This document shows, piece after piece, positions 40,245 to 56,171 of a stretch of 64,000 nucleotides of DNA. The notes beneath the pieces are model-generated. The model was not told the origin of the DNA and ran no database searches. It saw only the letters and a program-made list of their open reading frames with translations. This DNA is from Ignavibacteria bacterium (GTDB taxonomy: Bacteria > Bacteroidota > Ignavibacteria > Ignavibacteriales > SURF-24), in assembly GCA_025612375.1 (NCBI GenBank), contig JAAXKN010000001.1:166669-230668 (forward strand), given 5' to 3'. The translations under genes and the position numbers were made by a program. Position 1 is the stretch's first letter. Every line of letters starts with the position of its first letter.

Positions 40245-41810
40245 ATGGAATTAAATTTTAAGGCATATACCCGGTTTTATTTAATTTTATTGGGCGTTCT
40301 GGCACTTGGAGCGTTATACACCACTCACCTTTTCAGCTTTCTCCTTTTCCACACAATTTCAGAAATGATCAGTATCGGGATTGCATGGGGTCTGTTTATG
40401 CTTGCCTGGAACCTGCGTGATCTTTCGGAAGACCGTGCCTTTATATTTATAGGCATTGCATTTTTATTCACCGGTGCAATAGATCTGCTCCATACTCTGG
40501 CTTATAAGGGGATGAATGTATTTCCGGAAAGCGGCGGGGCCAATCCGGCAACACAGCTTTGGATTGCAGGCAGGTACTTTCAGAGCATTTCCCTTTTAAT
40601 TGTGCCTTTTTTAATTAAGCGCAGGATAAATTACAGCCTGATATTTTTTGTGCTTTTTTGTGTTACACTCCTGCTCTTAGCTTCAATTTTTTACTGGAAA
40701 GTATTTCCTCAGTGCTACATTGAAGGACAGGGTCTTACACGCTTTAAGATTGTAAGCGAGTATATAATCTCACTTGTACTTGTGCTTTCGGTATTCAGCC
40801 TTTTAAGGAAAAGGGATTTCTTTGACGCTGAGATGCTGAGACTCCTGCTGCTTTCAATAGGGCTGCTTATAATTTCTGAACTTGCTTTTACTTTTTACAT
40901 TAAGGTTTACGACCTTTCGAATGCAACGGGGCACCTTGTAAGGATAGTTTCTTACTTTCTTCTTTATAAGGCCATAATAGGTACAGGGCTGAAGAAACCT
41001 TTCAACCTCATGTTCCGCAGCCTCAAGCAAAGTGAGATGGAGCTCTTAAAAATAAATGAAAGGCTCCATGAGGAGCTGGAATCCAAAGAAAAGGCTGAAA
41101 TCGGCCTTAAGCATGCTGTAGAAGAGCTGGAACGGTCGAATAAAGAGCTGGAGCAGTTCGCCTACATAGCATCGCACGACCTGCAGGAACCGGTCAGGAT
41201 GGTCGGTAATTTTACTCAGCTGCTTGAAAGAAGATACAAAGACAAGCTGGACAATAAGGCACTCGAGTATATTAGTTTTGCCGTCGACGGCGCCCAGAGG
41301 ATGCAGTTACTGATAACTGGCCTGCTCAAGTATTCCAGGATAACGACACATGCAAGGGATTACTCGGCTGTAAACTGCAATATGGTATTGGGATCTGTTC
41401 TAAAAAATCTGGAACTGAGCATCAGGGAAAGCAGGGCCATTATAACTTCCGGGGTTCTGCCCACAATAATGGCCGACGAGGTTCAGCTGACACAGCTGTT
41501 TCAAAACCTCATCAGTAACGCCATAAAGTTCAGGCGCGGCAGCGAGGTGCCTGAAGTCCACATCAGCTCCGTTCAAAAGAACGAAAATTGGCTTTTTTCT
41601 GTTAGGGACAATGGGATTGGTATAGACCCGCAGTATGGCGAAAGGATATTCCAGATCTTTCAGCGCCTGCACACAAGAAGTGAGTATCCCGGAACCGGGA
41701 TCGGGCTGGCAGTATGCAAAAGGATAGTGGAACGTCACGGCGGCAAGATATGGATTGAATCTGAATTAGACAAGGGAACGACTTTTTATTTTACGTTTTC
41801 AATGAACTGA
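40245..41810 (+). CDS. Histidine kinase with MASE3-like membrane sensor
   Basis: The 521-aa protein has an N-terminal block of about seven to eight membrane helices (residues 10-265) with 'FLFTGAIDLLHTLAYKGMNV', which matches the MASE3 sensor domain as I recall it. A coiled-coil linker follows (270-305), then a complete kinase core: H-box 'AYIASHDLQEPVRMV', N-box 'LFQNLISNAIKF', 'VRDNGIGIDP' and 'GTGIGLAVCKRIVERHGGKI'. It belongs to the phytochrome-like kinase subtype. No response regulator is adjacent, so its partner is unknown. It is an orphan kinase between the radical enzyme activase and the aminotransferase. Confidence 0.88.
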   Translation: MELNFKAYTRFYLILLGVLALGALYTTHLFSFLLFHTISEMISIGIAWGLFMLAWNLRDLSEDRAFIFIGIAFLFTGAIDLLHTLAYKGMNVFPESGGANPATQLWIAGRYFQSISLLIVPFLIKRRINYSLIFFVLFCVTLLLLASIFYWKVFPQCYIEGQGLTRFKIVSEYIISLVLVLSVFSLLRKRDFFDAEMLRLLLLSIGLLIISELAFTFYIKVYDLSNATGHLVRIVSYFLLYKAIIGTGLKKPFNLMFRSLKQSEMELLKINERLHEELESKEKAEIGLKHAVEELERSNKELEQFAYIASHDLQEPVRMVGNFTQLLERRYKDKLDNKALEYISFAVDGAQRMQLLITGLLKYSRITTHARDYSAVNCNMVLGSVLKNLELSIRESRAIITSGVLPTIMADEVQLTQLFQNLISNAIKFRRGSEVPEVHISSVQKNENWLFSVRDNGIGIDPQYGERIFQIFQRLHTRSEYPGTGIGLAVCKRIVERHGGKIWIESELDKGTTFYFTFSMN

Positions 41811-47828: not shown

Positions 47829-48791
47829 TTATCTCTGGAATGATGTAAAGTAGAAGGAGTCGCCCACCTGGACTCTGGTCCTGGTAATTTTATCCATTGC
47901 AACGAAGAAGAAATTGACCTTATATCTGCCGTCGCCTTCGCGCAGCGGGCGCGACTTATCCATCCACTCCTCAAACTTCTCCTCATTGGGGGCAAGCCTC
48001 AAAGAGACATTGTAAACGAGGTTTCCCTTGGAATCCTTAATGGGGCCTGAAGCCGTTATAGGTCCGTTAAATGCAATGTTCAGGTCTTCGGGCCTGGGTG
48101 AAATGATTGAAACCTTAAAGACGGTAGTTTTCTGCAGGTCCTGTACGTATACATCAGAGCCGTTCATCTTTGTTGAGACGTTATCTATTTTAATTTCAGG
48201 GGGGCGTTTAGGAAGGACGTCAACTTTTTCCTCGTGGCCGTTAAACCTTACAATAACCCTGCTCTGGGCTGCAAGGTCGAACTTTTTCTGTTCTCCCGGG
48301 GCAATTCTTGCAATAATGTTTCCAGTGGAGGGGTCAACAATTTCCGCGGGTACGCTGCCCGAGTTTTTTGCCACGTTCCACGTATTCTGCATGAACTTCT
48401 GCCCTTCGGCCAAAGGGGAGTTGAAAGGCTCCTTAGTCCTTACTTCCTCTCTGGGTTTATTTACTGGGGTCTCATCAACTGCAGAAGGAGTTTCCTTTAT
48501 CTTTTTTGTAAGTGAAGCCATATTCTCAGAAAGCGACTCGATTTTCTTTTTCAGCTCCACGTTCTCGACCGCCATATTCTCCTCGACCCTCAGGTCGAAC
48601 TTGGCTCCAATTGCATTGAGGGAGTCGATAACAGTAACTAAAGAATCGCGCACGCTTCTTTTGATTGCCTCTTTTTTTGAGATCACTTCTCCAAGATCCA
48701 GGCCTGCGCCTTTTATAGCAAGGACAGTAATTACAAAGATGTAAAGCACCTGATAGATCACAAACTTACTGTCGCGGTTTTTTCTTACCAT
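47829..48791 (-). CDS. Membrane-anchored periplasmic protein, possibly GldM-like
   Basis: From ATG 48791 the 320-aa protein has a basic N-terminus, one helix ('FVIYQVLYIFVITVLAIKGA', 10-29), then a coiled coil (about 55-95) and a periplasmic beta-rich part with 'APGEQKKFDLAAQSRVIVRF' and 'KTTVFKVSIISPRPEDLNI'. GldM, the periplasmic subunit of the type IX secretion and gliding motor, has the same order: short cytoplasmic start, one helix, helical linker, beta domains. The protein is shorter than GldM (about 520 aa) and residue-level similarity was not tested. A GTG three codons earlier is possible. It follows a polytopic gene by 57 bases, as gldM follows gldL. Confidence 0.6.
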   Translation of the reverse strand: MVRKNRDSKFVIYQVLYIFVITVLAIKGAGLDLGEVISKKEAIKRSVRDSLVTVIDSLNAIGAKFDLRVEENMAVENVELKKKIESLSENMASLTKKIKETPSAVDETPVNKPREEVRTKEPFNSPLAEGQKFMQNTWNVAKNSGSVPAEIVDPSTGNIIARIAPGEQKKFDLAAQSRVIVRFNGHEEKVDVLPKRPPEIKIDNVSTKMNGSDVYVQDLQKTTVFKVSIISPRPEDLNIAFNGPITASGPIKDSKGNLVYNVSLRLAPNEEKFEEWMDKSRPLREGDGRYKVNFFFVAMDKITRTRVQVGDSFYFTSFQR

Positions 48792-48848
48792 TTCATGCAC
48801 CCTTATTATACTTGTCTTTAGTTAACATCAAATCTGAGCAAAGTTCAG

Positions 48849-49853
48849 CTATTTCCTAACCACTATTTGTTCGAGGCTCTGGAGTGCTTTAAGAGTTTTT
48901 TCGTCTTTCAGTGCATTTGATGCGTTTGCAAGAGATTCAGCGAGGGTTTTCAGTTCTCCCAGTTTCTGGAGATTAACCGCCGGGAGGGTGTTTATTTTTT
49001 CCATCATATCAAGGGCATTCTTTAAGTTCTGGTGCATCACCTGACTCAGTTCAGCCATGCGGGCATAGACCTCTTCATACTGCCTTAAGTCGCTTATGGG
49101 CATATAGTCTGCAACAGCAGCAATGTTTGACATTTTAGTGCTCTCGCTTAACTGGTCAATAACTTTCTGGAAGTGCTCAATCTGGGTCTGGGCGTAGTAC
49201 CTGTTCTTCAGTTCATTGGCGCGGTTAATGACGTGCTGGAACTCGACGCTGAGCTCGTCCAGGACGGGTTCAAATAGTTTGCCGAGGGCTAAGACAATGA
49301 GGGCCTTTATTTCAAAGGGGACAGAGAGCCCGAGAAAGACCTCTGGCCCGAGCTTAATGCTGATTAAAAGTATTGCAGCGCCGATTAAAGGCAGGGCTGT
49401 AGCAATTCCGTCGATAATGCTTATAGAGGATCCGATGATCCTGTCTATAATGTCGGGTGAAGTCGACTGTTTCACCTCACGTCTGAGTTCGCCGTAGGCC
49501 TTATAGGCAAAAAGGAGAAAGAAGATGTATGCGATAACCGGCATCCACCAGAAGCTTACGGAGTGGAATGCCTGGTTTACAGGTGTCCAGTTCGGGAATA
49601 TGCTCTTAGTGATGTTAATAGTAACGTTTCCGAGGATTGGAACGTAGGCCAGGTCCAGGAAAAATGAGAGAAAGAGCGCCAGAAGTGAAAAAAGGATATG
49701 TTTAGTGACAACGGTAAACTTAATTTCCCGCAGCTTAGATTCCTTGAACCTGTCGATCTCCTCTTCCAGACCATTTGACTTAAATATATACGAATAACTG
49801 TCTTCCTTAGTAGCCTGCGCGGTTTTAGTCTCCATGGCGCTTCCCTGTTTCAT
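48849..49853 (-). CDS. Polytopic membrane protein with coiled coil, possible GldL/MotA-like partner
   Basis: The 334-aa protein has four hydrophobic segments (about 52-75, 101-120, 147-168 and 172-196) and a long cytoplasmic helical C-terminal half ('YYAQTQIEHFQKVIDQLSES', 'SLANASNALKDEKTLKALQS'). The third helix, 'IATALPLIGAAILLISIKLG', has the small-residue spacing seen in MotA/TolQ/ExbB pore helices. The neighbouring single-helix protein would be the natural partner, giving the gene order of gldL-gldM. GldL itself has two helices, so this may be a separate ion-driven complex. I found no conserved charged residue that proves a proton path. The start is ATG 49853, with GGAGAT before it. Confidence 0.6.
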   Translation of the reverse strand: MKQGSAMETKTAQATKEDSYSYIFKSNGLEEEIDRFKESKLREIKFTVVTKHILFSLLALFLSFFLDLAYVPILGNVTINITKSIFPNWTPVNQAFHSVSFWWMPVIAYIFFLLFAYKAYGELRREVKQSTSPDIIDRIIGSSISIIDGIATALPLIGAAILLISIKLGPEVFLGLSVPFEIKALIVLALGKLFEPVLDELSVEFQHVINRANELKNRYYAQTQIEHFQKVIDQLSESTKMSNIAAVADYMPISDLRQYEEVYARMAELSQVMHQNLKNALDMMEKINTLPAVNLQKLGELKTLAESLANASNALKDEKTLKALQSLEQIVVRK

Positions 49854-50249: not shown

Positions 50250-52622
50250 ATGCAAAGTGTTAAGCTGGAATTCCTGGAAAAATATAATTATCTGAACTCC
50301 CTTGCAGAAAGGGGGCATGAGCAGTTCACAGATGAGCTGTGCGATTATATTGTTAATGAATTCGAATTGCAGGCCATGGTTTTATTCAGGGTCAATGATG
50401 ATGAAAGTCTGAGCGTTTTAGGCCGTTCAGCCTCAGCAAAAAAGAATTACATGCGGGGGGCCTCCTTCCGCTGCCCTGTCTGCAGTCTTACGAAAGAGAA
50501 AAATCCCTCTTTTCAGACACATTCAGATGCCGAATGCCAGCTGCTGATTTCCGAGTTTGTCATTTATGAAGCCTGCATGACGGCAAAAATAACTGACAGC
50601 CAGAACGGGTTTATTAAGTTTGCAAAGAAGACGCCTTTTCAAAGGACTGATATTGACAACCTAAGGTCGGTTTCGGAATTCCTGGGTTACATTTTAAGGA
50701 CCTGGTCGGCCACACGGGGCGAGAGCCTTAGCCTTCCGGGCAAGTCGGCCTCAGAGATCTTAAATGACATTTCACAGGAGCTGAGGACGCCGGCAAACAG
50801 CATCATAGGTTTTGCCTCGCTGCTCGGTGAAGACAGCCTTACGCCGTCGCAGTCGGAATACGTCTCAATCATAAAGAGCAACGCGCAGAATCTGCTTTTA
50901 ACGGTAAACGACCTTATTGAAGCCGCAAAAATAGATTCAGGCAAGATAAAGGAAAACAGGACCCTCGTAGAGATCAGGAAGTTTACAGACGATATAATTA
51001 AAGTTTACGCCTCAAAGACAAATCCGTTAAACGTTGAGATCACCTCTGAATTCGACAGGGCGCTGCCGGAGAAAATTCTGGTTGATGTACCCCGTCTGAA
51101 ATACATTATGCAGAACATACTGCAGCATTCAATAAGAATGACAGAGCGCGGAAAGATAGTTATACGCATGGGGCTTTCAGGCAAAAGCCAGCTTTCTGTA
51201 AAAATTACAGACACCGGGCGCGGAATTGCGCAGGATCAGATAAAAAACGTTTTTGAACCATTTGCATTTTCTTCCTTTGATGGCCTGAAGACTTCGGGCT
51301 CCTCGGGGCTCGGGCTTACGCTCGCAAAAAAATATATTAACTTCTTAGGCGGCGATATTAGTGTTGAAAGCGCACCAGCGCGCGGGATGCTGTTTAACTT
51401 TACGGTTAACGTTGAGGCGGTCTCGGAACTGGAGAAAAAGATCATCAACCTCCCTGCCCCGGAAGGAAGCAGAAACAAGGTGCTTGTAATTGAGGATGAC
51501 TACGCCACTTCAAAGCTTTTAAGCAATTACCTGAACAAGTGGGGCTATGAGCCTACAATAGTCAATACGGCCGAGCAGACGATGATAATGATTGAAAAGG
51601 AGAAATTCCTTGCAATAATCATGGATATCGTGCTGCCAAATGCAAACGGCCTTGAGCTCTTAAAGAATATTCATGAGCACAAGCATACAAAAAACACCCC
51701 TGTTATTGTCTGCTCCATTGAGGCAGAGCAGCAGAAGGCTTTCATGCTTGGAGCCGTGGAATATTTTGTAAAGCCTATAAAGTACAAGTTTTTAGTTGAA
51801 GTCCTGCAGAGCTACCGCCTGAAGAAGGATTCGACGGTCCTGTGCGTAGATGATGACCTGCCGACGCTGAACCTTCTTAAGGAAGCCATAGTTAATGCGG
51901 GCTACAACGCACTTGCCGAGCAGTCCTCGGCCAGGGTGATGAGTCTTATAGAAGATAAGGACTTGGATCTTGCCATTGTGGATCTGGATATGCCGGACCC
52001 GAACGGCTTTGAGCTGATAAAGCTCATTAAATCCAACAGCAAGTTTCAGCGCCTGCCAATTATAATTTATACTGGCAAGGAGAACTACCAGGAAGACCTG
52101 ATGAAAATTGACGGGCTTTTTGAGGATCTGTTAAGCAAAAAAAGCACGAACATTGAGGACCTGGCACAGACAATTAACGAGATGATCAACCGTAACGACA
52201 TTCCCCTGCCGCCACAGGAAGTGGCCAAAAGGGATAACGTTATAAAAATACTTTTAGCTGAAGATTATAAGCATTCGCAGATAATTGTAACCAGGCTCCT
52301 GAAGAAGAATAATTTTGAGAACATCATTGTTGTTGAAAACGGCGAGGAAGCCCTTGATAACGCCCGCAGGCAGCATTTCGACCTGATACTTATGGATATG
52401 CAGATGCCTGTTATGAACGGCTTTGAGGCTACGGAAAAAATCAGGCAGATACCTGAGTATAAGGATACGCCGATTGTTGCCCTGACAGCATTTGCAATGA
52501 AAGGTGACCGCGAGAAATGCCTGGAGGCCGGGGCAACGGACTACATTCCCAAACCGATCGACAGCAAGGAGTTTATAGAGAAGGTTAAATACTATACGAG
52601 CATTAAAAAGCAGCTCTCTTAG
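50250..52622 (+). CDS. Hybrid sensor protein with degenerate kinase core and three receiver domains
   Basis: The 790-aa soluble protein has an N-terminal GAF-like sensor (1-150) with four cysteines (Cys75, Cys78 in 'FRCPVCSL', Cys96, Cys109). A kinase core follows (165-390), then three receiver domains with intact phospho-acceptors in 'IMDIVLPNANG', 'IVDLDMPDPNG' and 'LMDMQMPVMNG'. The kinase H-box reads 'DISQELRTPANSII', so the usual phospho-acceptor His is Gln176 (CAG, 50775-50777). The N-box is 'QNILQHSIRMTERG', with His293 where Mg-binding Asn is expected. The G-boxes 'ITDTGRGI' and 'SSGLGLTLAK' remain. It cannot phosphorylate itself in the usual way and probably acts as a scaffold or phosphate sink for other kinases. 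Confidence 0.9.
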   Translation: MQSVKLEFLEKYNYLNSLAERGHEQFTDELCDYIVNEFELQAMVLFRVNDDESLSVLGRSASAKKNYMRGASFRCPVCSLTKEKNPSFQTHSDAECQLLISEFVIYEACMTAKITDSQNGFIKFAKKTPFQRTDIDNLRSVSEFLGYILRTWSATRGESLSLPGKSASEILNDISQELRTPANSIIGFASLLGEDSLTPSQSEYVSIIKSNAQNLLLTVNDLIEAAKIDSGKIKENRTLVEIRKFTDDIIKVYASKTNPLNVEITSEFDRALPEKILVDVPRLKYIMQNILQHSIRMTERGKIVIRMGLSGKSQLSVKITDTGRGIAQDQIKNVFEPFAFSSFDGLKTSGSSGLGLTLAKKYINFLGGDISVESAPARGMLFNFTVNVEAVSELEKKIINLPAPEGSRNKVLVIEDDYATSKLLSNYLNKWGYEPTIVNTAEQTMIMIEKEKFLAIIMDIVLPNANGLELLKNIHEHKHTKNTPVIVCSIEAEQQKAFMLGAVEYFVKPIKYKFLVEVLQSYRLKKDSTVLCVDDDLPTLNLLKEAIVNAGYNALAEQSSARVMSLIEDKDLDLAIVDLDMPDPNGFELIKLIKSNSKFQRLPIIIYTGKENYQEDLMKIDGLFEDLLSKKSTNIEDLAQTINEMINRNDIPLPPQEVAKRDNVIKILLAEDYKHSQIIVTRLLKKNNFENIIVVENGEEALDNARRQHFDLILMDMQMPVMNGFEATEKIRQIPEYKDTPIVALTAFAMKGDREKCLEAGATDYIPKPIDSKEFIEKVKYYTSIKKQLS

Positions 52623-52629
52623 TAAATTT

Positions 52630-52736
52630 AACCCGGCTCCTCCGGGTTGCAGGTTTTAAGGCCTTGTATTGAGGGCCTGAATTAAGACAGAAACAGGTTT
52701 CTTTTTAAGAAGCGAATCTCGGGTTCGCTTTTTAGT
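52630..52736 (+). terminator. Two consecutive hairpins, terminator region
   Basis: AACCCGG-CTCCT-CCGGGTT (52630-52648) is a perfect seven-base stem eight bases after the hybrid-kinase stop. A second hairpin, AAGCGAA...TTCGCTT (52710-52730), is followed by TTTTTAG and more T-rich sequence and is the better terminator. Together they separate the kinase from gltX. Confidence 0.8.
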
Positions 52737-52858: not shown

Positions 52859-54319
52859 ATGATTAGTGAACATCCAAGAGTAAGATTTGCTCCCAGCCCC
52901 ACGGGTTATCTTCACGTGGGAGGATTAAGGACTGCTCTTTATAACTATCTTTTTGCAAAAAATCAGAATGGAAAGTTCATTCTAAGAATTGAAGATACCG
53001 ACAGGAACAGATACGTTGAGGGCGCAGTTGAAAACCTGATAAACGTGCTTAAATGGATAGGGCTGGACTATGATGAAGGCCCGCAGAAGGGCGGCGAATA
53101 CGGCCCTTACATGCAGTCGGAGAGACTCGACATATATAAAAAATACGCTGACGAGCTGATTGAAAAAGGTCATGCCTACTACTGCTTCTGCACGCCGGAG
53201 CGCCTGACGGAGCTAAAGGAAGATCAGAGGGCTAAGGGGCTGCAGCCTAAATACGACAAGCACTGCCTCTCGCTTTCCAAAGAGGAAGTTGAAGAAAAAC
53301 TTAAGAGCGGAATGCCTTATGTTGTAAGGCTTAACATTCCTCCTGACCTTAAAGTAGCCTTTGACGACATTGTACGAGGCAGGGTTGAATTTGACAGCAA
53401 CGGAATTGACGACCAGGTACTGATTAAAAGCGACGGGTACCCAACGTACCACATGGCAAACGTGGTTGATGATCACTTTATGAAAATCACACACGTTGTG
53501 CGCGGCGAGGAATGGCTTTCTTCGACACCAAAGCACGTGCTTTTATATGACGCATTCGGCTGGGAAAAGCCGCAGTTTGCACACCTTCCCCTGCTTTTGA
53601 ATCCTGACCGCTCAAAGCTGAGCAAGCGCCAGGGAGACGTTGCAGTAGAAGACTACAGGGCAAAGGGCTACTTAAAAGAGGCGCTTCTTAACTTCGTTGC
53701 CCTCTTAGGCTGGAATGCCGGTGACGACGTGGAATTCTATCATTTAGATGAGATGGTTAAGAAATTCTCTTTAGAAAGAGTAAACAAGTCGGGCGCCGTA
53801 TTTGACCTGGCAAAGCTCAACTGGCTTAACGCCGAGCATTTAAGAAAAATGCCTGAGGCTGACCTGCTAAATCACCTGAAAGAAGAGCTTTCTAATTCAA
53901 AGTTTAAGGATAACACTCTCAGCGACGAATACCTTCTAAAGGTAATTGCAGCGATGAAGGAAAGAGTATCCTTTGTGAAGGAGTTTTTAGAGAAAAGCCC
54001 CTACTTCTTTGAGCGCCCGGAGGGTTATGAGGAAAATGCGGTAAAAAAGAGCTGGAAAGAAAATACTCCGGAACTTTTAGATAAGCTGATTGAGGGCTTT
54101 GAAAGGCTTGACAATCCGAAAAAGGAAGACTACGAAGATGTGCTGCACAAGACAGCCGAAGAGCTTCAGGTTGGAAATGCAAAGCTGATCCATCCTGTGC
54201 GCCTTGCAGTCTCAGGCGTAAGCGCGGGCCCGGGACTTTTTGACATGCTGGATATTCTGGGCAAGGAGGAAACTGTTCTGAGGCTTAAGACGGCAATAGA
54301 GAAAATAAAAATCCAGTAA
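52859..54319 (+). CDS. gltX: Glutamyl-tRNA synthetase
   Basis: The 486-aa class I synthetase has the HIGH-type motif 'RFAPSPTGYLHVGGLRTALY' (9-28) and the KMSKS-type motif 'DRSKLSKRQGD'. Between them is the Cys-containing zinc-finger-like region 'HAYYCFCTPERL', and the anticodon-binding domain follows. It charges tRNA-Glu with glutamate for protein synthesis (and tetrapyrrole synthesis where present). The AGAGG site fits the ATG. glnS follows 82 bases downstream on the same strand, possibly in one transcript. Confidence 0.97.
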   Translation: MISEHPRVRFAPSPTGYLHVGGLRTALYNYLFAKNQNGKFILRIEDTDRNRYVEGAVENLINVLKWIGLDYDEGPQKGGEYGPYMQSERLDIYKKYADELIEKGHAYYCFCTPERLTELKEDQRAKGLQPKYDKHCLSLSKEEVEEKLKSGMPYVVRLNIPPDLKVAFDDIVRGRVEFDSNGIDDQVLIKSDGYPTYHMANVVDDHFMKITHVVRGEEWLSSTPKHVLLYDAFGWEKPQFAHLPLLLNPDRSKLSKRQGDVAVEDYRAKGYLKEALLNFVALLGWNAGDDVEFYHLDEMVKKFSLERVNKSGAVFDLAKLNWLNAEHLRKMPEADLLNHLKEELSNSKFKDNTLSDEYLLKVIAAMKERVSFVKEFLEKSPYFFERPEGYEENAVKKSWKENTPELLDKLIEGFERLDNPKKEDYEDVLHKTAEELQVGNAKLIHPVRLAVSGVSAGPGLFDMLDILGKEETVLRLKTAIEKIKIQ

Positions 54320-54401
54320 GGATCAGGATAATTTGATTCCTTGAATTAAAGGCCTGCAAATTCTTAAATTTAGAGTTACAAATTTTAATAAAACATATTT
54401 T

Positions 54402-56171
54402 ATGGAAGAAAATAAAAACAATATGAACGCCGAAGGCGGAAACGACGCCCCACTGAACGATAAAAAAGTAACTACCGAGGGGGATAAGACTGTTGTAAAC
54501 GGGACTCCTACACAGGATTTTGTAAGAGCCATTATATCAGAGGACTTAAAGACAAACAAGTTTGGAGGAAAGGTTCATACCCGTTTTCCCCCTGAGCCTA
54601 ACGGATATCTTCACATTGGGCACGCAAAGTCAATATGCCTTAATTTTGGGGTAGCCCAGGAATTTGGCGGCCTCTGCAACCTGAGGTTTGATGATACGAA
54701 TCCGAGCAAAGAAGATGTGGAATACGTTGACTCAATTATTGAGGACGTAAAGTGGCTCGGCTTTGACTGGGGTAACCGCATGTTTTACGCTTCTGATTAT
54801 TTTGACCAGCTTCACGCCTATGCAGTTGAACTCATAAAACAAGGCAAGGCTTTCGTCTGCGACCTGAATGCGCAGCAGCTGAGGGAGTACAGAGGCACTC
54901 TTACAGAGCCGGGGAAAAACAGCCCCTACCGCGACCGCACAGTCGAGGAGAACCTGGACTTATTTGAGCGCATGAGACATGGTGAATTCCCTGACGGCAG
55001 CCGTACGCTCAGAGCAAAGATAGACATGGCTTCTCCTAACCTTAACTTGCGTGACCCTGTAATCTACAGAATTTTAAGAGCCACGCATCACCGCACAGGA
55101 GACAAGTGGTGCATTTACCCGATGTACGACTTTGCACACGGGCTTTCCGACTCTGTGGAAGGGATTACGCATTCAATCTGCACGCTTGAATTTGAGGCCC
55201 ACCGTCCCTTGTACGACTGGTTCTTAGATGAGCTTGAGGTTTATCACCCTCAGCAGGTTGAGTTTGCAAGGCTGAACCTGAACTACACAGTTATGAGCAA
55301 GCGCAAGCTTCTGCAGCTCGTACAGGAAGGGTTCGTCTCGGGCTGGGATGACCCCAGAATGCCGACCATCTCGGGCCTAAGGAGGCGCGGTTACACGCCT
55401 GAATCCATACGCAGTTTCAGCGAGAAAGTAGGCGTGGCAAAAAGGGAGAACACGATTAACGTAGCCCTGTTGGAACACAGCATCCGCGAGGACCTGAATA
55501 AAAGAGCGCAGAGAGTTATGGCGGTCTTAAATCCTCTGAAGCTTATAATTGACAATTATCCCGAAGGACAGACCGAAGAGCTTGAAGCCATTAATAACCC
55601 CGAGGATGCTTCAATGGGAACGAGGAATATCCCCTTCTCGAAGGAATTATTCATTGAGCAGGACGATTTCCGCGAGGAGCCTCCGAAGAAATTCCACAGG
55701 CTTTTCCCGGGTAACGAGGTACGCCTCAGATATGCATACATCATAAAATGCACAGACGTGGTAAAGGACGAGGCGACGGGTGAGGTTAAGGAAGTGCACG
55801 CAATTTATTATCCTGAAACCAGGAGCGGAAGCGACCAGAGCGGAAAGAAAGTTAAAGGCACGATACACTGGGTATCGGCTTTACACGCACTTAAGGCCGA
55901 AGTAAGGCTTTACGACCGCCTCTTTAAGGTTGAAGACCCATCGGTTGAAAAGGAAGGCTCCGACTGGAAGAGCAATCTGAATCCCGATTCGCTTCAGGTA
56001 TTGACTTCAGCTCTTGTTGAGCCGAGCCTTAAGAATGCACCCAGAGGCTCAAAGTATCAGTTTGAGCGCCAGGGTTATTTCTGCGTGGATCCTGACTCAA
56101 CGGTTGAAAAGCTTGTCTTTAACCGCACCGTTGCGCTTAAGGACTCTTGGGCAAAGATAGAAAACAAGTAG
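54402..56171 (+). CDS. glnS: Glutaminyl-tRNA synthetase
   Basis: The 589-aa synthetase has '[20 protein letters not shown]' (HIGH motif) and '[14 protein letters not shown]' (KMSKS-type), and the two beta-barrel anticodon domains of GlnRS ('[15 protein letters not shown]', '[20 protein letters not shown]'). A hydrophilic N-terminal extension of about 38 residues precedes '[13 protein letters not shown]'. With glnS present, tRNA-Gln can be charged directly and the GatCAB amidation route is not required for it. Bacterial glnS is generally thought to derive from eukaryotes by transfer. A strong terminator follows. Confidence 0.97.

Follow-up and report, generated by a model that had tools for sequence, protein, structure and literature searches.

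A kinase-degenerate hybrid protein with three conserved receiver domains in the order Ignavibacteriales and its possible role as a phospho-integrator

Described pseudo-histidine kinases and the Ignavibacteriales protein

Of the bacterial pseudo-histidine kinases, only a few have been studied so far (PMC5361649). A well-studied one is DivL of Caulobacter, a histidine kinase (HK) fold whose phospho-acceptor His was replaced lineage-wide and which is retained as a regulator (PMC4211667; PMC5361649). In plants, the subfamily-2 ethylene receptors ETR2 and EIN4 and their monocot relatives carry a degenerate HK domain on a canonical receiver, and for the monocot members phosphorylation of the receivers in trans has been proposed (PMC3611092). 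Two further systems resemble parts of the protein described here: the Fe-S sensor kinases AirS and NreB, with a four-cysteine N-terminal sensor region before the kinase (PMC4601167), and the alphaproteobacterial MrrA, a receiver-only integrating hub (PMC5964349).

Here we analyzed a gene in a stretch of 64,000 nucleotides from the genome of an Ignavibacteria bacterium (contig JAAXKN010000001.1), hereafter termed the window. Pfam recognizes HisKA (residues 168-231), HATPase_c (279-388) and three Response_reg domains in its product, in the HisKA, HATPase_c, REC order of a hybrid histidine kinase, and no DNA-binding or enzymatic output domain is present (Table 1). The first-pass annotation had called the protein soluble, which is reasonable given a maximum Kyte-Doolittle value of 1.53 in 19-residue windows, none of them hydrophobic enough for a membrane helix. 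In the literature searched we found no description of this order-wide protein family.

Hybrid histidine kinases of the BarA, TorS and HrmK type share the domain order and are the best NCBIfam matches, all far below cut-off; unlike them, the window family lacks the phospho-acceptor His, has a degenerate ATP site, three receivers and a four-cysteine GAF-like domain, and its kinase part appears to be evolutionarily dispensable. DivL-family proteins carry Tyr or Ala at the His site, keep the other HK boxes, and have PAS domains and no receiver, whereas the window family shows Gln, Asn, Ser, His or Asp at position 176, a GAF-like sensor and three receivers, and it is the kinase that erodes and the receivers that are conserved. 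The monocot subfamily-2 ethylene receptors are the closest functional analogue that we found, a works-like comparison only, as these are plant membrane receptors with one receiver. The same limit applies to MrrA, which has one receiver and no sensor. AirS and NreB are both active kinases, and AirS spaces its cysteines as C-x7-C-x-C-x17-C, as opposed to C-x2-C-x17-C-x12-C in the window family.

Table 1. Features of the pseudokinase gene and its downstream neighbor (window coordinates).
Feature	Position	Strand	Basis
Whole gene: GAF-like (4 Cys) - HisKA - HATPase - REC1 - REC2 - REC3	50250..52622	+	ATG start, 790 aa
N-terminal domain, res. ~8-160, predicted GAF fold	50271..50729	+	AF2 model and structure comparison
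C75, C78, C96, C109 codons, CxxC-x17-C-x12-C, candidate metal or Fe-S site	50472..50576	+	Conservation
HisKA/DHp, res. 167-231	50748..50942	+	Pfam E 7e-14
Q176 codon CAG at phospho-acceptor position	50775..50777	+	Alignment, sequence
E177-x-x-T180, E/DxxT/N position linked to HisKA phosphatase activity	50778..50789	+	PMC3510030
HATPase/CA domain, res. 276-390; H293 at 51126-51128	51075..51419	+	Pfam
REC1, res. 410-522, D459	51477..51815	+	Alignment
REC2, res. 530-645, D578	51837..52184	+	Alignment
REC3, res. 665-782, D716; alpha1 helix 674-686	52242..52595	+	Alignment
Terminator-like hairpin between pseudokinase gene and gltX	52705..52735	+	Consensus match only
gltX, conserved downstream neighbor	52859..54319	+	

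Loss of the kinase across the order

The reading as a pseudokinase, first made from the window alone, holds at the level of sequence and extends to the relatives. Gln176 stands in SQELRTP where HisKA has SHELRTP, and His293 (codon CAT, in NILQHSIRMT) takes the place of the second, Mg-binding Asn of the N-box, thus the complete N, G1 and G2 boxes of an active hybrid kinase are not found. The other five of six ATP-site residues (D321, G323, G325, G353, and G355) are present, and the HisKA fold is predicted to be intact, so that sequence and modeled HK fold together fit a pseudo-histidine kinase. The genome holds about 80 HisKA loci; as a control, 49 HisKA segments were read, 47 of which have the His and one of which is cut at that column, leaving the window protein as the sole one with another residue. 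A sequence error does not explain this, because Gln176 and His293 recur in a congener (89% identical) and the remaining orthologues from the same family have Gln, Gln and Ser at position 176; the loss is old and common to relatives, and the first-pass annotation thereby withstands its own test, which asked whether close homologues keep the His. Autokinase activity is very probably absent from the window protein.

The family is a feature of one order. A profile of the N-terminal domain, which was found only in Ignavibacteriales, matches 148 of 164 genomes of the order (102 of the 109 of good quality) at one copy per genome with one exception, a broken gene, and in other orders of the class and phylum it gave no match beyond four marginal partial ones (E 2e-4 to 0.01). 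Full-length, single-copy orthologues at 42-89% identity occur in nearly all of 59 relatives searched, and the receiver part as query finds 65-77% identity inside the order and, across the entire array, no more than about 35% outside. Most genomes compared are draft assemblies; those of the order include the cultured strain Melioribacter roseus P3M-2 (PMC3534657), which carries a kinase-degenerate copy. A virus origin was considered and set aside, the pseudokinase having no viral relative, as was a defence origin, the PADLOC matches falling on the receivers only.

Across 62 orthologues, residue 176 is Asn in 19, Gln in 13, His in 12, Ser in six, Asp in three and Leu in three, with other residues in the rest. 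None combines His with all six ATP-site residues (N293, D321, G323, G325, G353, and G355): each of the twelve His-bearing orthologues is without at least one of the six, and the one orthologue with all six (L046) has Ser176. Few positions of HisKA are conserved as poorly as 176, and hardly any in the entire HATPase domain is less conserved than 293, the reverse of what is expected for an active kinase family. On a rapidly built tree of the receiver columns only, in which 17 forks are weakly supported, residue 176 undergoes no fewer than 23 changes and shifts between His and non-His at least six times. A protein that is still an active kinase, through another phospho-acceptor or through the Ser/Thr activity reported for the degenerate HK domains of subfamily-2 ethylene receptors (PMC3611092), could draw on the five ATP-site residues kept in the window protein; however, these residues are gone in most orthologues, three or fewer of the six remaining in 38 of 62, and we regard this explanation as very improbable.

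The remaining kinase portion forms a series. L154 gives normal Pfam scores for both HisKA and HATPase, both domains fall below cut-off in the M. roseus protein (L140), HATPase is not matched in L049, and neither domain is recognizable in L294:1492-3720 (genome G579), where the four cysteines and three receivers are present. At the far end, L146:8351-9535 (genome G039), at the same locus between clpP and gltX, encodes a bare REC1-REC2-REC3 protein of 394 aa that starts at its own ATG in the linker before REC1; sensor and kinase are absent, and the 245 bp upstream hold no readable kinase remnant, in this case known from a single assembly (one MAG). Read from these alignments, kinase loss is recurrent across the order and graded, stepwise from near-intact to absent. 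A further copy, L287:2382-3584 in the reduced 2.1-Mb genome G600, is broken by frameshifts and stops and was therefore rejected as a natural domain deletion; no gltX was found in its 7-kb stretch.

What is left of HisKA may still serve as a phosphatase, as the first-pass annotation had considered. Glu or Asp at 177 together with Thr or Asn at 180 is found in 50 of 62 orthologues, including 39 of the 50 without His, and in the HisKA kinases tested the conserved Thr/Asn alone is needed for phosphatase activity (PMC3510030). A dedicated phosphatase or phosphate sink, in which the His-less HisKA would dephosphorylate its own or other receivers and drain partner kinases under redox control, has to be taken as a serious rival because Thr/Asn180 is retained in 41 of the 50 His-less orthologues. 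Against it, the two-residue motif is missing in 11 of those 50, receivers are kept in L146 without HisKA and in L294 with HisKA unrecognizable, and the E177/T180 motif may persist for helix structure. We consider a phosphatase role of some kind doubtful, and the dedicated phosphatase or sink unlikely.

Constraint on the receivers and the four-cysteine domain

The receivers present a different picture. All three keep their Asp in the window protein (D459, D578, and D716), as the first-pass annotation had stated, with the acidic pair, Ser/Thr (S489, T608, and T746) and Lys (K508, K630, and K768) near-invariant. In the orthologues the Asp is found in 59 of 64 for REC1 (the other five have Asn), in 63 of 63 for REC2 and in 61 of 62 for REC3. 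Mean pairwise identity over 43 loci is 0.33 for the N-terminus, 0.46 for HisKA, 0.33 for HATPase, 0.70 for REC1, 0.69 for REC2 and 0.82 for REC3, with GltX (0.67) and GlnS (0.71) of the same genomes as references, and REC3 identity exceeds that of GltX in every pair. In close pairs dN/dS is at or below about 0.22 in every domain where it was estimable and does not exceed about 0.05 in the receivers, with several dS values saturated and a few not computable. The receivers are very probably the functional core of the protein. Judging by sequence, the protein has lost its phospho-acceptor together with part of the Mg/ATP site, while three receivers with full active sites are very strongly constrained order-wide.

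A decaying, useless gene might be read from the degenerate kinase motifs and from the broken copy in G600. For the family, the conservation data have already disproved that reading, dN/dS being well below 1 in all domains where estimable, REC3 identity higher than that of GltX in each pair and the gene present in 148 of 164 genomes, and we give it almost no weight. Flow of information in the reverse direction deserves slightly more attention: DivL, with Tyr for His, senses DivK~P and controls CckA (PMC4211667; PMC5361649), and a degenerate kinase fold could likewise take up information by binding another kinase, or a response regulator in its phosphorylated form, and relay it. The predicted intact HisKA fold and the higher identity of HisKA (0.46) than of HATPase (0.33) would agree with this, yet a docking role would keep the surface, whereas DHp and CA are poorly conserved, unrecognizable in L294 and absent in L146; the receiver array, moreover, has no counterpart in DivL. 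We judge this explanation improbable.

In the alpha1 helix of REC3 (674-686), 12 of 13 positions are invariant. In known receivers the alpha1 helix docks to HisKA or HPt helices. The near-invariance points to a conserved phosphotransfer partner.

The N-terminal domain gave no Pfam match worth trusting and no match in a PDB sequence search. Its AlphaFold model (pLDDT 81), compared against known structures with Foldseek among others, matches GAF domains at Z 12-14 and about 9% identity; a phytochrome GAF ranks first (Z 13.8), which at this identity would indicate the fold only and not bilin binding. A redox-sensitive N-terminus had been proposed from the CPVC motif (residues 75-78). The motif is there and the proposal fits, although the conserved set within the predicted GAF fold is larger than the CPVC pair: C75, C78, C96 and C109 are each 94-97% conserved and all four occur in 57 of 62 orthologues. 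All four are missing in L147, L174, L282, L285, L288 and L289 and partly lost in L139, L143, L148, L283 and L284, lists that include six genomes chosen for a weak match to the domain profile and hence are not a random sample. As losses tend to be joint, one shared site is suggested, the simplest candidate being a metal or Fe-S centre like that of AirS/NreB but with other spacing. We hold a metal or redox site in this domain to be slightly favored.

A proposed receiver array served in trans

We propose, as a reading that we favor somewhat over all others taken together, that the protein is a kinase-dead receiver array acting as a phospho-integrator. REC2 and REC3, and usually REC1, would receive phosphoryl groups from at least one separate histidine kinase or HPt protein, with docking via the near-invariant REC3 alpha1 helix. 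The HisKA helix pair would act mainly as dimerizer and signal conduit, and the four-cysteine GAF domain, probably with a metal or Fe-S centre, would set filling, emptying or read-out of the array, possibly using a residual Thr180-type phosphatase action. Output is presumably by protein contact, because a DNA-binding or enzymatic output domain is lacking. Uptake of phosphate from other kinases had been among the roles first suggested and, with the receivers as the part that selection preserves, it is the best-supported one; phosphorylation of the receivers in trans seems probable to us. A bolder version, in which the protein is an order-defining core hub, a metal/redox-gated three-receiver array whose kinase was discarded many times and whose REC3 docks one essential partner common to all Ignavibacteriales, is put forward tentatively and is rather doubtful.

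Several observations weigh against the phospho-integrator. The candidates examined yielded neither a partner kinase or HPt protein nor an output target. Some of the twelve orthologues with His may autophosphorylate or relay phosphate in cis, and with five of six ATP-site residues the window protein is likely to bind ATP, so that heterodimeric or unusual kinase activity is possible. At least six genomes have lost the cysteines, indicating that the metal site is dispensable in places, and the receiver-only case rests on one MAG.

The heterodimeric alternative supposes that the DHp domain pairs with an active histidine kinase, and that the CA domain or the His of this partner then supplies the three receivers. 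A pseudokinase form pairing with an active paralogue is documented for ChrS/HrrS (PMC9491836), and the many HisKA loci of the genome offer candidates. On the other hand, even the nearest paralogue encoded by the genome shares only about 27% identity, DHp is strongly divergent between species, and the receiver-only version would be unable to pair via DHp, which leaves this alternative rather improbable.

With respect to single candidates for the phospho-integrator's partner, the MASE3 histidine kinase (window 40245-41810, +) had been suggested, but of 57 genomes of the order only four have a MASE3 domain that scores above cut-off, while the pseudokinase is nearly universal there, so it was dropped as a general partner. 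REC-HPt proteins of about 240 aa were also rejected, as the copies examined lie between motAB-like or beside cydAB-like genes and no link was seen.

The family matters in two respects. One order offers a natural gradient that begins with a near-intact kinase and ends with its absence, while REC3 is conserved more tightly than a tRNA synthetase; hence the fate of a hybrid kinase after it ceased to be a kinase becomes directly testable. It is also a warning for annotation: from its domain matches the gene would be taken for an active hybrid sensor histidine kinase, which would mislead across the order.

As for the surroundings of the gene, 57 of 62 loci have gltX downstream of it in the same orientation, usually as the next gene. 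An operon with gltX was rejected: gaps range from 15 bp to 1.9 kb, a terminator-like hairpin lies between the genes in the window, and synteny is no proof of co-expression. The gap before gltX in the window holds no tRNA. In the window gltX is followed by glnS (together 52859-56171, +), and glnS is nearby in 43 loci. Two uncharacterized proteins, for which Pfam gave no match worth trusting, are encoded divergently from the pseudokinase gene (window 47829-49853, -); four loci contain both of them (families 22 and 23).

The REC-HPt genes form a side observation of their own. In three genomes of the order a copy of about 240 aa lies between two motAB-like gene pairs (L271:2711-3439, L273:1962-2675, and L275:1724-2440), possibly a flagellar-motor phosphorelay, and in the window's genome a second REC-HPt (L270:2708-3436) has cydAB-like genes as neighbors.
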